From a virus, in IMG/VR virus record IMGVR_UViG_3300050120_000110, positions 1-38,410 of that record: a DNA stretch of 38,410 bases; one strand, written 5' to 3'. The stretch's first letter is position 1. Each line of letters starts with the position of its first letter. The position numbers and the translations under genes were made by a program. Shown here piece after piece: positions 7,065 through 22,910 of the stretch. A model generated the notes under the pieces. It saw only the letters and a list, made by a program, of their open reading frames with translations. It was not told where the DNA came from and did not search any database.

Positions 7065-7835
7065 CTAGATTCTGATATTTTCCAGCCGCCTCTCGCGCTT
7101 TTCAGCCTCTGACAGTCTACCACCACCCGACGATGAAACGTCGGATCGTGCGCCCGGAGTTGTTGCGCGAGTTGCGGAACCTGATTTTGTGGATTTCACT
7201 TCGGATGATTTAAGCTTTCCATCCAGCATGTCTTTGCCGACCAGGATAGCCAAAAGGTTCTCCCGTGGCGCATTGTTACCCCGTGATCGGAGTTCGGTCA
7301 GCATGGTTTCAACACGATCCTTGTACGCGGCAAACAGTTTTGGCTTTGATGCCTGCAACTGACTGAACGCGGCCTTGTCGGTCATGTCTTGCGCTGTGAA
7401 CAACGTGTTCTGAGAGATTGATCGAGCTTCCCGCGCCGCCCGGTTGGCATTGATGGCATATTTCTGCCAATCGTTCGCCTCGGGGTTGCGCAAGACTTCT
7501 TCCTCTTGCTGCCAGATTCGTTGTTCCTCACTCGGTTGCGCAGGGCTTGCCGGTTGACGCCGCGCAGCTTCAAGCTCGGCCCGAGCCGTAGCCAGTTGCC
7601 GTTCGGCTTCCTGTGCGCGACTGCGCGCAGCCTGCATGTCCCGTTGATACCGTGTGAGCGGCTTTGGTTCGGGGTCTTCCGCAGGTTCCTCGGGCTCATC
7701 GACCGATTCATCCTGAGTTTCCTCGGGCTCATCGACCGATTCATCCTGAGTTTCCTCGGGAATCGGATCATCGTCAGGTTCAATACACGCCGACAACCGT
7801 TTGACCAACCAATCAAGTAAAAGCGATTTCCACAT
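7065..7835 (-). CDS. Scaffolding-like protein
   Basis: This 256-aa, mostly helical and highly charged protein lies just upstream of the capsid gene. After a short amphipathic N-terminus (WKSLLLDWLVKRLSA) comes an acidic block with a duplicated ETQDESVDEPE unit, then a coiled coil (about residues 70-110, RDMQAARSRAQEAERQLATA). The C-terminus is basic (LSEAEKRERRLENIRI), the usual capsid-binding end of scaffolds. Position, charge pattern and lack of a fold motif support a scaffold. I chose the ATG at 7835 because GGAG lies 6 bases upstream. An ATG at 7847, 1 bp after the metallopeptidase stop codon, would add four residues. Confidence 0.75.
   Translation of the reverse strand: MWKSLLLDWLVKRLSACIEPDDDPIPEETQDESVDEPEETQDESVDEPEEPAEDPEPKPLTRYQRDMQAARSRAQEAERQLATARAELEAARRQPASPAQPSEEQRIWQQEEEVLRNPEANDWQKYAINANRAAREARSISQNTLFTAQDMTDKAAFSQLQASKPKLFAAYKDRVETMLTELRSRGNNAPRENLLAILVGKDMLDGKLKSSEVKSTKSGSATRATTPGARSDVSSSGGGRLSEAEKRERRLENIRI
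7686..7760 (-). repeat. 33-bp tandem repeat in scaffold gene
   Basis: A 33-bp unit occurs at 7686-7718 and exactly again at 7719-7751, with a 9-base partial third copy at 7752-7760. It encodes the duplicated acidic ETQDESVDEPE segment and is in frame, so copy-number change would alter only the length of the acidic arm. Confidence 0.9.
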
Positions 7836-7848
7836 TTCCATCTCCATG

Positions 7849-14589: not shown

Positions 14590-14621
14590 ACCCCTGACGG
14601 GGAACAAATTAGGAGAATATG

Positions 14622-15524
14622 ATGATCGATATTTATATAGTTTCTAAAAATTGGAAATCTGAGGGTAAATGGAAGATCGCTCCGGCGGGTCTTGCTTGGA
14701 TCAAAGAAGGCGCACGGTCCAGCATCGGCGCACGGTCCAGCATCGGCGAATGGGCCAGCATCGGCGAATGGGCCAGCATCGGCGAAGGGGCCAGCATCGG
14801 CGCACGGTCCAGCATCGGCGAAGGGGCCAGCATCGGCGAATGGGCCAGCATCGGCGAAGAGGCCAGGATCGGCGAAGGGGCCAGGATCGGCGAAGGGGCC
14901 AGGATCGGCGAAGGGGCCAGGATCGGCGAAGGGGCCAGCATCGGCGAATGGGCCAGCATCGGCGAATGGGCCAGCATCGGCGAAGGGGCCAGCATCGGCG
15001 AAGGGGCCAGCATCGGCGCACGGTCCAGCATCGGCGAATGGGCCAGCATCGGCGAATGGGCCAGCATCGGCGCAGGGGCCAGCATCGGCGCACGGTCCAG
15101 GATCGGCGAAGGGGCCGGCATCGGCGCACGGTCCAGGATCGGCGAATGGGCCAGCATCGGCGAATGGGCCAGCATCGGCGAAGAGGCCAGGATCGGCGAA
15201 GGGGCCAGGATCGGCGAAGGGGCCAGGATCGGCGAAGGGGCCAGCATCGGCGCACGGTCCAGCATCGGCGCACGGTCCAGCATCGGCGAATGGGCCAGCA
15301 TCGGCGAATGGGCCAGAGATGTAGTAGACCTAGGTTGGGTAGACGGTTATCGTAAGTGTGTTGCACAGAAAGACGGCGTTGCCTGGATTGGCGCGGGCTG
15401 TCGGTGGTTTACTCTTGCCGATGCGCTAAAGCACTGGTCAAACAAGGATGGTCGTGAGTTAACGATGTGCTTGATGCAGTCAGCAATTTTCATCGCAGGG
15501 CTGCGCGGCTGGAGCCACGAATGA
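14622..15524 (+). CDS. Hexapeptide-repeat (left-handed beta-helix) protein
   Basis: This 300-aa protein is dominated by 33 perfect-length hexapeptides (variants of EWASIG, EGASIG, EGARIG and ARSSIG). The periodic Ile-Gly every six residues matches the left-handed beta-helix rule seen in acyltransferases and polymer-like repeat proteins, giving about 11 coils. A 30-aa cap (IDIYIVSKNWKSEGKWKIAP) precedes the repeats, and a 72-aa Trp/Cys-containing domain (VDGYRKCVAQKDGVAWIGAG) follows. No acyltransferase catalytic residue is apparent. ATGs lie at 14619 and 14622; the second has better spacing from AGGAG. An early anti-host or DNA-mimic role is conceivable but unproven. Confidence 0.85.
   Translation: MIDIYIVSKNWKSEGKWKIAPAGLAWIKEGARSSIGARSSIGEWASIGEWASIGEGASIGARSSIGEGASIGEWASIGEEARIGEGARIGEGARIGEGARIGEGASIGEWASIGEWASIGEGASIGEGASIGARSSIGEWASIGEWASIGAGASIGARSRIGEGAGIGARSRIGEWASIGEWASIGEEARIGEGARIGEGARIGEGASIGARSSIGARSSIGEWASIGEWARDVVDLGWVDGYRKCVAQKDGVAWIGAGCRWFTLADALKHWSNKDGRELTMCLMQSAIFIAGLRGWSHE
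14712..15305 (+). repeat. 18-bp tandem repeat array, 33 units
   Basis: Thirty-three consecutive 18-bp units, each ending in ATCGGC, differ mainly in the first six and the tenth to twelfth bases (for example GAATGGGCCAGCATCGGC). A higher-order block (EWASIG, EEARIG, EGARIG runs, EGASIG) appears twice, about units 8-13 and 26-30, showing duplication of several units at once. The unit has no stop codon in any plus frame and none in at least two minus frames, so long false reading frames appear here. Confidence 0.95.
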
Positions 15525-20120: not shown

Positions 20121-20329
20121 TTCGACCCCTTTGTCTCTACCATCGGTGGAACATAATCCATGCGACTTCGTTGACGCACTTTAGATTGCTCCGCATCCCG
20201 GTCAGCCGGTGCATTGAGGGCGCGATCGGCTGCGATGGCTGCGCGGGCAAGTTTCCTGCCATATCCTCCTGCCCCCCATGCATGCTCTTTCAAAATGGCA
20301 TCGATCTGGCCATCCGTAAGTTCTTTCAT
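20117..20329 (-). CDS. Small orphan (MKELTDGQID family)
   Basis: This 70-aa protein opens with MKELTDGQIDAILKEHAW and contains LARAAIAADRAL, a pattern common among small phage proteins of unknown role. The C-terminus is charged and probably disordered. The ATG overlaps the helicase stop (ATGA). Confidence 0.65.
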   Translation of the reverse strand: MKELTDGQIDAILKEHAWGAGGYGRKLARAAIAADRALNAPADRDAEQSKVRQRSRMDYVPPMVETKGSK

Positions 20330-22812
20330 AATTCAATCCTTTGTTTAAGTTCATCCGCTTCTTTACGCCCAAGTGTTTGGGCAGTTCCTATATCGATTCC
20401 ATACTTAAAATAAAACCGCCTCTGCGCCATGGATATGGTGTCGCCCTGCGCGGTACGCTGACCGCCCCATAACGCCATGGCTTCACGCAACTGAGCCTGC
20501 GCTTCTTGCCTTTCGCGGTGCCGCGCCTTGAGCGAAGCTTGAATCAATTTATCGGGATGAAACGCGGGCGGGGCGTCAATCTCGCCACGCAGCTTGGCCA
20601 GTGCTTCAGGGGTCAACTCGTACAGATCACCGTCAACTTCTTCGGGTAGGGAGCGACCTGCGGGTTCCGGCGCAAAACCGCAATAGGGGCAAGTTGCCAA
20701 TACTCGCTCGTACGCGCCAGTACACTCAGGACAGGTCCGCACCGGAATAACTTGTTCGACGGTTGCGCTGGTTCGACGCTCACGACGGTCCAGTGTCCAG
20801 ACCCTGGGGGCATCGGGTAATCCATGGCGGTGAACGTTCCCAACGTGGTCGATAATGATTGCATGTAACTTTCCTTCCATGGGACGCAACGAACGTCCGA
20901 ACTGTTGACAGAATAACCCGTAGCTTTGCGTCGGCCGCGCCATGCTGATAACTTCGATGGCTGGAAGGTCGAACCCTTCACCAAACAGATCAACGTTCAC
21001 CACTTGCAACAATTCACGTCGCCTGAGTCTTTGCAGGATCGAACGACGTAAACCGTCAGGTGTCTTCGCGCTAACCATTTCGGCGGGTATCCCGTGATGC
21101 CGAAATGCTGCCGCCATCTCAGTTGCGCTTTCTACATCCACAGTAAAAGTTATCCCCAACTTACCCGGCGCAATGCGTTGATAATGTTGCACCACGTCAC
21201 CGACGATATGGCTCTTATGAACGGCATGCGCGAGTTTGGGCGGAGAAAAGTCGCCCGAAGCGCTGAGCGGTACATCGCGCAGATCAATGTCAGAGGGCGG
21301 TGCAAATATCCGGTACTCAGTCAAATATCCATCCGCGATAAGCTCTCGCATCGTCGGCCCTTGCACCATCGTGTCCATAAGGCCATCGGCGTGACGACCG
21401 AGTCCGTTACCGTCAGCTCGGCACGGCGTGGCGGTAACGCCTAACATGCGGGCTTGAGGAAACATGGACGCCGCAGCACCCCATTTGTTTTTCTTCAAGA
21501 CGTGATGGCAGTTGTGCACAACTATTCCGTTTGCGACGTAAGTGTGATGCTCATCAACTTCAAAATTGTAGACATAACCGCCCTCACCACAACCTCCGGG
21601 TGTTCCAATATTTCGGTGTTCGTAAATCTCAACGTCGTCCAACCCAGTCCATTTAAAAACTTCTCCTTTTTCGCATCTTTCAATGAACCTTTCCCGGAAT
21701 GCGTCGAACCGTCCGCCTCCAGCGCTAGCCTCAGTTTCCAGTTCCCCATATCCGGCTTGTACACTGGCGGGAAACCGCTCCCGTCCCCGATTGTGTGTCC
21801 GGTCCGAATGTTCGGTTGAGGCACAAAACCCAACGCGGAAAACATGATCGACAAAGTTTCTTCGGCCAAAGTTGCTGGTTTTCCATTCCCCCCTTGAACT
21901 TTCGGCTTGTGCCCAATCTCCCGTAGACGGTTCGTCATTTTTGATACCGATCTCGGATCGTGCATTGGATTTTTCTTGCGCATGCGGTCTGACGCATATT
22001 CCAGATTTGTCTTCGTCGCAGTTTCGGATGAAATCCTTTTTCGGTATTCCGTAGAGCATTCCCGACAGCAATACCCCCGACCCGTCTTCGCGTAAAAAGC
22101 CATCAATGGTGCGTTCCGAATGACGGGCGCCCCGCAAATAAAACAGTTCATCAAAAAGTACCTCGTCTGTGCGTTCAAGTTCGTCGGCTCTGATCCAGCC
22201 CCGTTTGGTAAAAAAGGGATGGTTCGGTGTGCAGTTAAGTTCATGATGCGTTATTCTAATACGCACCATTCGTTTCGGTTGTGCTTTTTTGAACAAACGA
22301 ACTACTTTTCGTTCGACAAACTCCCCCGAAACTTCGTTGAAGGCGGTCACTGTATCGCCGACGCGAACGTCTTCAATAGGTCTCCCGTCAATGAGCGTAC
22401 CTGCGATAAAGCACTCATCCTGAACAACTAAAGATACCGATTGCGTCCAGGCGTTGGGTTCCATGCGCACCAGCGTGTCAACACCAGCCACAGCAACGCG
22501 ATTGCCTGGATCAACGTAATTTCGGCGCAGTTCGGCCAGGTGCTGCGTGGTGCAGGTATGGGCGACCGCCTTCGGCCCGACGATTCTGTGACGGACACCG
22601 TTACGGGCCAGCGCAAGACTAATCTGCACGACAAGTTCCTGACGATGCGCGATAGCTACCGACGCGCCCGGCTCACGGGCTATGATGTCGCTGAAAATCA
22701 CAGTCTTACCGCCGCCTGTAGGGAGTGTCAGCAACACGTTGCGATGACCCTGTGACCACGCGTTTAACACGCCGTCACGGCAATCTATCTGATAGGGACG
22801 AAGTTGTGTCAT
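20326..22812 (-). CDS. SF2 DExH helicase precursor with intein
   Basis: This 828-aa precursor is an SF2 helicase. It has MTQLRPYQ (Q-like motif), Walker A LPTGGGKT, a DE-CHH Walker B box split by an intein, GVTATP (motif III), FGEGFDLPAIEVI (motif V), QQFGRSLRP (motif VI), and a CPEC/CPYC zinc finger near the C-terminus. Removing the 301-aa intein gives a 527-aa protein of normal size and restores DECHH, so splicing is required for ATPase activity. The ATG at 22812 overlaps the 33-aa gene stop as ATGA; an ATG at 22878 would overlap that gene and is rejected. It probably acts in replication or restart. Confidence 0.9.
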   Translation of the reverse strand: MTQLRPYQIDCRDGVLNAWSQGHRNVLLTLPTGGGKTVIFSDIIAREPGASVAIAHRQELVVQISLALARNGVRHRIVGPKAVAHTCTTQHLAELRRNYVDPGNRVAVAGVDTLVRMEPNAWTQSVSLVVQDECFIAGTLIDGRPIEDVRVGDTVTAFNEVSGEFVERKVVRLFKKAQPKRMVRIRITHHELNCTPNHPFFTKRGWIRADELERTDEVLFDELFYLRGARHSERTIDGFLREDGSGVLLSGMLYGIPKKDFIRNCDEDKSGICVRPHAQEKSNARSEIGIKNDEPSTGDWAQAESSRGEWKTSNFGRRNFVDHVFRVGFCASTEHSDRTHNRGRERFPASVQAGYGELETEASAGGGRFDAFRERFIERCEKGEVFKWTGLDDVEIYEHRNIGTPGGCGEGGYVYNFEVDEHHTYVANGIVVHNCHHVLKKNKWGAAASMFPQARMLGVTATPCRADGNGLGRHADGLMDTMVQGPTMRELIADGYLTEYRIFAPPSDIDLRDVPLSASGDFSPPKLAHAVHKSHIVGDVVQHYQRIAPGKLGITFTVDVESATEMAAAFRHHGIPAEMVSAKTPDGLRRSILQRLRRRELLQVVNVDLFGEGFDLPAIEVISMARPTQSYGLFCQQFGRSLRPMEGKLHAIIIDHVGNVHRHGLPDAPRVWTLDRRERRTSATVEQVIPVRTCPECTGAYERVLATCPYCGFAPEPAGRSLPEEVDGDLYELTPEALAKLRGEIDAPPAFHPDKLIQASLKARHRERQEAQAQLREAMALWGGQRTAQGDTISMAQRRFYFKYGIDIGTAQTLGRKEADELKQRIEL
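21511..22413 (-). mobile_element. Intein inserted in the DE/CHH ATPase box
   Basis: The intein spans precursor residues 134-434 (ATG at 22812). Block A is CFIAGTLIDG with nucleophile Cys1. Block B is ELNCTPNHPFFT with the TxxH pair. Block F is YVYNFEVDEHHTYVANG and block G is IVVHN followed by Cys+1. All residues needed for standard splicing are present. The 158 or so residues between the N-domain (ending near DELFY) and C-domain are polar, lack a hydrophobic core and show no LAGLIDADG or HNH motif. They are the other-frame reading of a nested endonuclease gene. Confidence 0.93.
21522..22151 (-). CDS. Homing endonuclease nested out of frame in the intein
   Basis: This 209-aa protein is read in the +1 frame relative to the intein and lies wholly inside it. 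It has an N-terminal zinc ribbon (CFIC near 3-6, CCREC near 28-32), a NUMOD-like KKNPMHDPRSVSKMTNRLR linker, and a Vsr/EDxHD or DUF559-like nuclease core: KPDMGNWKLRLALEADGSTH (Asp134, Glu145, Asp147, His151), Asp159, then GWTTLRFTN. The ATG at 22151 has GAGGT about 10 bases upstream and coincides with the point where the intein N-domain ends. The stop is 9 nt before the last intein codon boundary region. An upstream ATG at 22244 lacks a good site. It probably cleaves intein-less helicase alleles. Confidence 0.85.
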   Translation of the reverse strand: MNCFICGAPVIRNAPLMAFYAKTGRGYCCRECSTEYRKRISSETATKTNLEYASDRMRKKNPMHDPRSVSKMTNRLREIGHKPKVQGGNGKPATLAEETLSIMFSALGFVPQPNIRTGHTIGDGSGFPPVYKPDMGNWKLRLALEADGSTHSGKGSLKDAKKEKFLNGLGWTTLRFTNTEILEHPEVVVRAVMSTILKLMSITLTSQTE

Positions 22813-22910
22813 GAAGTAAGTTGGATGATGGCGATACCCATGAGTGCGACCACTAACGATCCGCACGCGAGCAGCCATGCTACGGCGAGCGCTATGAAAA
22901 AGTAGTCCAT
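22809..22910 (-). CDS. 33-aa membrane peptide upstream of helicase
   Basis: This short gene encodes a 33-aa peptide starting MDYFFIALAVAWLL and ending IAIIQLTS, almost entirely hydrophobic, with one or two membrane passes. Its TGA overlaps the helicase ATG (ATGA), and it begins 4 bp after the stop of another small membrane peptide gene. This head-to-tail packing fixes the helicase start and supports translation. Function unknown. Confidence 0.6.
   Translation of the reverse strand: MDYFFIALAVAWLLACGSLVVALMGIAIIQLTS

Follow-up and report, generated by a model that had tools for sequence, protein, structure and literature searches.

By the usual teaching, an intein is a single polypeptide and its endonuclease a domain inserted into it. 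Here we describe a 38,410-nucleotide stretch of viral DNA (IMG/VR record IMGVR_UViG_3300050120_000110, positions 1 to 38,410, referred to as the window), which carries what is very probably a mobile phage intein inside a RadD-like helicase gene, with a homing endonuclease that, instead of being an intein domain, is a protein of its own, overprinted on the intein in the +1 frame. As in the canonical large LAGLIDADG inteins, a homing endonuclease splits the HINT fold and a conserved gene motif is targeted. However, in the window the nuclease would be a separate +1-frame protein, and it belongs to another nuclease family.

In fractured genes, reportedly described by Dassa in 2009, a Vsr-like nuclease gene lies between the two halves of a split intein. 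The parts are of the same kinds as in our locus, and two of the loci collected here (L090 and L091) have intein halves of this kind, whereas one continuous intein frame runs through the nuclease in the window, as it does in 234 of 249 loci. The homing endonuclease I-Bth0305I is, as Taylor is said to have reported in 2011, intron-encoded, unlike the nuclease of the window. The two enzymes share their catalytic fold (Z 12.0), and, from the part of PMC3943268 on EDxHD homing endonucleases, both belong to a phage mobile element and carry an added DNA-binding part.

The ShiLan domain and Pacc40 insertions are out-of-frame HNH enzymes in which the authors find neither an intein nor an intron, according to the sections of PMC11855218 that deal with them. 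These insertions also contain an out-of-frame endonuclease, leave the host frame open and are apparently mobile. However, in those sections they are without a recognisable splicing domain, while the window has a full intein with a DUF559 nuclease and the two share ordered sequence. The intein section of PMC9403480 refers to a DUF559 gene from the EDxHD family, with no out-of-frame arrangement described alongside it. Both parts, intein and EDxHD nuclease, are of known kinds, and we found no description in the literature of an intact intein overprinted by a nuclease in the +1 frame, although the preprint "Actinobacteriophage Inteins ... Non-Canonical Architecture", cited in PMC11855218, may hold one.

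The host gene, its intein and the nested nuclease frame

The minus strand of the window contains at 22878..20326 a single open reading frame (ORF) of 850 amino acids (aa) for a RadD-like helicase, i.e. host gene and intein are not in separate ORFs as in fractured genes. The ORF matches the DNA helicase family PHROG 16 (E 8e-82) and NCBIfam RadD (E 1.8e-34, under the curated cut-off of the family). Residues 156-456 of the ORF are the intein (301 aa, 22413..21511), which splits helicase motif II between DE and C-HH. At the equivalent site, the helicase of Shewanella phage SppYZU01 is free of the intein and has an uninterrupted motif II. The features of the locus are as follows.

20326..22878, minus strand: host gene, ORF of a RadD-like superfamily 2 helicase with intein (ORF list, NCBIfam RadD, PHROG 16)
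21511..22413, minus strand: intein, 301 aa, between DE and C of helicase motif II (Pfam and NCBIfam matches, invariant residues, empty site in SppYZU01)
22144..22413, minus strand: intein N-terminal splicing domain, residues 1-90 (AlphaFold2 confidence mostly >90, Foldseek matches to solved inteins, best E 2e-6)
21664..22116, minus strand: intein residues ~100-250, predicted disordered polar linker on the same bases as the nuclease core (confidence mostly <55, little intein constraint at nuclease wobble sites)
21511..21660, minus strand: intein C-terminal splicing domain, residues 252-301, blocks F and G (AlphaFold2, ordered except for a loop)
21522..22151, minus strand: nested +1-frame ORF of a zinc-finger and Vsr-like (DUF559/EDxHD) nuclease, 209 aa from the probable start (DUF559, AlphaFold2, structural alignment, substitution pattern)
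22161..22164, minus strand: GAGG, candidate ribosome-binding site of the nuclease, inside the intein codons Asp-Glu-Val (sequence, also in L004, L006, L007 and L008)
22056..22145, minus strand: nuclease Cys4 motif C3, C6, C28, C32 (at least 90% conserved in 62 sequences)
21675..21719, minus strand: putative catalytic segment with E145, D147, H151 and D159 (invariant in 62 sequences; EDxHD naming after the part of PMC3943268 on these enzymes)
21522..21524, minus strand: nuclease stop codon TAG within intein block G codons (TAG in 93/117 relatives)
21522..21660, minus strand: dual-coded zone, last strand and C-terminal helix of the nuclease over the intein C-domain (AlphaFold2 models, synonymous-site constraint in both frames)

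The intein has the sequence features of class 1. It matches Pfam Intein_splicing (E 3.3e-11), and TIGR01443, the NCBIfam model of the intein C-terminal splicing region, matches at host-ORF residues 435-457 (E 1.4e-7). In 62 aligned relatives, the N-terminal nucleophile C1 is invariant, as are H65, V299, H300 and N301, and T62, which with H65 forms the Thr-x-x-His of block B, is at least 90% conserved. The intein ends in His-Asn followed by Cys in 86 of 86 loci, and L221 has Ser as the following residue. An in-frame endonuclease of the canonical type is absent: in all 236 inteins that carry an EDxHD-type nuclease, the nuclease is offset by +1. A search of the window against Rfam for introns gave no family at gathering score. 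In the same helicase family, Klebsiella phage pKp383 (L252:67-2742, plus strand) has, by eye, an in-frame LAGLIDADG-like intein at Walker A.

The nested ORF extends over 22244..21522 on the minus strand, i.e. 240 aa when counted from the ATG at 22244, and residues 166-226 match Pfam DUF559 (E 4.9e-11). From the sequence, the nuclease probably starts at the ATG at 22151, giving 209 aa, because GAGG is found nine bases upstream and the first Cys4 pair follows right after; the ATG at 22244 has no comparable GAGG site upstream. Four relatives (L004, L006, L007 and L008) have an identical GAGG at the equivalent place before the nuclease start, and over the whole set there is a weak trend. The nuclease stop precedes the intein end in 114/115 relatives, and the preference for TAG presumably arises because the stop overlies the conserved (Leu/Val)-Val of block G. 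Searches with the nuclease gave just one weak unnamed family in PHROGs and no relatives among plasmids.

The overprinted arrangement is widespread

A nuclease overprinted in an intein is a widespread, mostly unannotated packing of a mobile element. In a scan of viral contigs with the nuclease alone, blind to inteins, 75 of the best 80 of 229 relatives lie wholly inside a single uninterrupted intein ORF, always at +1. The other five are two loci cut by the contig end, the free-standing nuclease of L050, and the identical L090 and L091 with a stop-interrupted intein. Among all 91 loci examined, the nuclease is fully within one uninterrupted intein ORF in 86, again always at +1. The set was then extended to 249 loci, partly by searching with the intein N-domain of nested members, and is therefore not unbiased; it holds 234 loci nested at +1, 2 interrupted ones, 7 nucleases without a full intein and 6 inteins without this type of nuclease. 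The 234 nested loci represent 131 distinct DNA sequences and 117 clusters at 90% identity, of which 100 belong to a single extein cluster, the one containing the RadD-like superfamily 2 helicases. The remaining hosts include SNF2, DinG-like helicase and terminase genes (Pfam), as well as a DnaX-like gene (by eye). One relative, L086:1020-4727 (plus strand), has two stretches within a single host ORF that match the intein splicing model of Pfam, the second insertion being the one examined.

Among named phages, 40 of 50,697 records have a match (37 Vibrio, 2 Corynebacterium and 1 Pseudomonas). In all eight public phage records that we examined, the match lies inside a single annotated coding sequence (CDS) and no second CDS is present. 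The nuclease is thus unannotated in these records, so that homing activity goes unnoticed in phages of this sort. Genome contigs gave one weak relative, L012 from a Thioploca metagenome-assembled genome, a DUF559-like gene around which no intein was seen; it was dropped from all counts.

Two predicted folds share the same bases

The nuclease of 209 residues is predicted by AlphaFold2 with a mean predicted local distance difference test score (pLDDT) of 91.9. Foldseek alone gave no match to this model with E < 0.001, and VIA-align was applied as a second look at the Foldseek candidates. It gives Z 13.3 to 3hrl, Z 12.0 to the homing endonuclease I-Bth0305I (2.6 Å over 93 residues) and Z 9.5 to Vsr. 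In the model, the nuclease has a Vsr-like endonuclease fold. The intein model is a HINT fold (Foldseek best E 2.0e-6, to 2lwy), confident at residues 1-90 and 252-301 only, with a pLDDT <55 for most of 100-250 and low confidence in the loop 269-277.

The last strand and the C-terminal helix of the nuclease overlie the C-terminal strands of the intein in these models. Intein residue 252 begins at 21660, so 21522-21660 is the stretch ordered in both frames. The DUF559 and intein hidden Markov model (HMM) matches overlap by only ~10 bases (21576-21567), and the ordered and conserved sequence of both frames, from the AlphaFold2 models and the column profile, overlaps over 21660-21525. The sequence-only reading had held that the same bases at 21522-21660 encode the nuclease end and the intein C-domain, and this is confirmed by the ORFs, the HMM matches, AlphaFold2 and the column profile. 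It is a clear natural case of two unrelated ordered folds sharing bases.

Selection acts on different frames along the overlap

Substitutions were counted by parsimony in 22 close relatives forming 6 groups; the window has no relative that close in the set. In the exteins and the intein N-domain, host codon position 3 takes 57-66% of the substitutions, whereas the nuclease core has 64% of its substitutions at host position 1, the third position of the nuclease codons. Four-fold degenerate sites of the host frame show 65 changes at 143 sites in the intein N-domain (0.455 per site) and 117/249 in the 3' extein. Over the nuclease, they show 5/454 in the core (0.011), 2/106 at codons -60 to -21 (0.019) and 8/40 at -20 to -4 (0.20), counting back from the last intein Asn. 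The nuclease-frame four-fold sites change at 146/472 in the core (0.309) and more slowly at codons -20 to -4 (4/44, 0.091, p 0.008). In the close relatives, this slowing is confined to the last 17 codons.

A deeper set of 117 representatives with <90% nucleotide identity was used to measure the bias of wobble bases relative to the usage within each sequence class and to stop avoidance; its p-values are indicative, as sequences were treated without a model of relatedness. In the nuclease frame, the bias is 0.01-0.06 bits at residues 1-163, 0.40 at 164-178, 0.39 at 179-192 and 1.30 at 193-205 (31 vs 133 columns, p 2.3e-13). Nuclease-synonymous sites are therefore free over 1-163 and constrained from ~164 to the end, i.e. 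at 21662-21525. The peak of synonymous constraint that had been proposed for 21522-21660 is found in the nuclease frame; in the intein frame the suppression of synonymous change is not limited to this stretch but covers the whole nuclease.

Single codons show the same. Arg175 of the nuclease is AGR in 96/115 sequences, compared with 248/865 at other Arg columns (p 5e-30), and with AGR rather than CGN the intein frame can read Glu. Gly170 ends in G in 94/114, compared with 353/1019, which gives Val in the intein frame. In the other direction, block F Val(-20) is GTC in 92/101 and Asn(-18) is AAT in 86/100, compared with 215/926 and 193/357 in the intein N-domain. Mini-inteins without the nested frame, of which there are four distinct sequences only, have mixed codon choices at the compared sites.

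Along the dual-coded zone there is a division of labour between the frames. Family-conserved residues in both readings, as the sequence-only reading had noted, are indeed found at nuclease 170-178 (GWxVLRFxN over RVDxVEVxE) and 194-199 (STISKL over VYNxEV). Between them, at residues 182-192, the nuclease is only loosely conserved, and the intein frame retains a loop resembling DGTFGG-C-PDG in the column profile.

Upstream of this zone, the intein frame carries little sequence of its own. When 62 nested nucleases were resampled with synonymous codons, 479 stops were expected in the intein frame and none was observed, compared with 919 observed and 813 expected in the third frame. Since an open intein frame had been a criterion for choosing these 62, the figure free of this bias is the 75/80 of the nuclease-only scan. 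The linker is slightly more polar than its resampled versions, a small effect (grand average of hydropathy -1.07 vs -0.98, 80/115 more polar). The middle of the intein therefore needs an open frame and perhaps polarity, but no particular sequence.

A model for the element and its alternatives

We suggest the following model. The helicase-frame reading would give the N-terminal splicing domain, a disordered polar linker and the C-terminal splicing domain, and the intein would excise itself, rejoining helicase motif II. A reading one base on would give, from just after the N-terminal splicing domain, the zinc-finger Vsr-like nuclease, whose frame would end at the TAG inside the Val-His-Asn end of the intein. 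By analogy with homing endonucleases, the nuclease would cut intein-free helicase genes, thereby copying the element, and so it probably spreads the intein. Over most of the overlap the sequence would be needed by the nuclease alone, the intein needing only a stop-free frame and a polar linker, while in the last ~45 codons both proteins would be structured and the sequence held by both. What the analysis shows are the two frames and their conservation, the frame-specific substitution patterns, the predicted folds and the transfer between different exteins, and from there splicing, internal initiation of the nuclease, DNA cleavage and homing are inferred.

Some observations weigh against this model. 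Shine-Dalgarno support for the nuclease start is only moderate, with sites of at least 4 bases in 43/107 loci compared with 26.3 in random segments, and in 11/107 loci the first Cys of the zinc finger has no start codon within 25 codons. Furthermore, the nuclease four-fold sites of the close relatives at codons -60 to -21 are not slower than those of the core (25/88, 0.284, vs 0.309, p 0.75); an apparent drop there in the whole-position count was not relied on, given this result. The nuclease could instead be made by programmed ribosomal frameshifting, fused to the N-terminal part of the helicase and the intein N-domain. The +1 offset, which is without exception, would fit this, as would the 11 loci without a nearby start codon and the 64/107 without a Shine-Dalgarno match of at least 4 bases. 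We consider frameshifting unlikely, as a start codon lies within 25 codons of the first Cys in 96/107 aligned loci, Shine-Dalgarno sites are more frequent than in random segments (for at least 5 bases, 16 of 107 loci vs 4.2) and the window has GAGG nine bases ahead of the ATG. A Shine-Dalgarno site as the universal start signal of the nuclease was rejected, since the enrichment is only moderate.

The other alternatives concern whether both proteins are still in use. The insertion could be kept as a tolerated loop that no longer splices, as proposed for the ShiLan insertion; such insertions are described in the relevant sections of PMC11855218, and the middle of the intein frame is without a sequence of its own. 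This is very unlikely, given that C1, H65 and V299-H300-N301 are invariant in 62 sequences and the +1 Cys is present in 86/86, that the insertion interrupts helicase motif II, and that the intein C-domain is constrained at places where the nuclease is not. That the nested frame is the decaying remnant of a former homing endonuclease, with selection on the intein alone, is highly improbable. Nuclease decay does happen, as the 5'-truncated nuclease of L217 and the existing mini-inteins show, but the catalytic-type residues are invariant in 62 sequences, the host-frame four-fold sites are almost frozen over the nuclease (5/454 vs 65/143 changes), substitutions track the nuclease wobble and the copy in the window is intact. 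Finally, long spurious ORFs are present elsewhere in the window, and a chance open frame over a conserved gene could look alike; the DUF559 homology, the fold match and the identical offset in 234/249 loci make the probability of this negligible.

Related forms and mobility

Transfer of the element between different exteins is observed. The nucleases of L084 and L065 are 89% identical and their exteins 58%, and over 6767 pairs nuclease similarity and extein similarity correlate with a rank coefficient of only 0.44. This mismatch and the low correlation support horizontal spread. The empty site in the SppYZU01 helicase and the variety of host genes likewise speak for mobility.

Free-standing nuclease genes are found immediately upstream of a helicase-like gene in L050 and L134 and upstream of a terminase-like gene in L156 (neighbours identified by eye). 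Nested tails after Asn178 have a median of 28 residues (n=115), and three free-standing relatives have 33, 23 and 24. The sequence-only reading had the nuclease C-terminus recruited or trimmed to fit block F; trimming is not supported, because the nested tails are not shorter overall than the free-standing ones. The idea of a fit survives in the tail sequence: STISKL is absent from the three free-standing tails, and from these three sequences it is likely that it was shaped by block F.

L090:2517-3491 (plus strand) resembles a split intein: its two intein halves are in phase and separated by some 25 stops, and the nuclease overlaps each of them. L090 and L091 are of the fractured-gene type, with host gene and intein in separate ORFs, and L090 may be an intermediate that links fractured genes to overprinted inteins. 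In L217:2501-3085 (plus strand), the intein is intact, and of the nested nuclease the 5' half is gone and only the 3' part is kept; this is a natural step towards a mini-intein. Mini-inteins without nuclease are L201, L225, L240 and L245. An unrelated HNH ORF is nested at +1 in the inteins of terminase-like genes (by eye) at L247:2625-3473 and L254:2459-3331, both on the plus strand. The L247 ORF matches Pfam HNH_2 (E 1.9e-6), and that of L254 is 59% identical to it.

The related forms fit a path in which a free-standing nuclease was enclosed by an intein and later lost, the direction being our interpretation. We tentatively propose, as a possibility somewhat short of probable, that overprinted inteins are a general phage class that has arisen at least twice, with EDxHD enzymes in helicase, SNF2, DinG-like, DnaX-like and terminase genes and with the unrelated HNH enzymes in terminase inteins. 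They could have arisen by clearing the intein-frame stops through a once free-standing nuclease gene, rather than by insertion of a nuclease domain, with the split L090 and the helicase-adjacent L050 and L134 as steps. Fixed intein motifs could then supply the nuclease ends, Asp-Glu-Val giving a ribosome-binding site in part of the family and Val-His-Asn the stop. A large family with the endonuclease as a second protein in another frame would change how inteins gain and lose mobility, and would explain long "helicase" or "coil containing" proteins with a nonsense-like middle.

Other features of the window

The window also contains two repeats. The 301-aa ORF at 14619-15524 (plus strand) has ~33 copies of an 18-base tandem repeat (14719-15316) with the hexapeptide pattern ASIGEG/ASIGAR, over which five long ORFs overlap on both strands; it presumably resembles a left-handed beta-helix protein. 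A perfect 33-base direct repeat of 2.3 copies is found at 7686-7760, within the minus-strand ORF 7065-7847.

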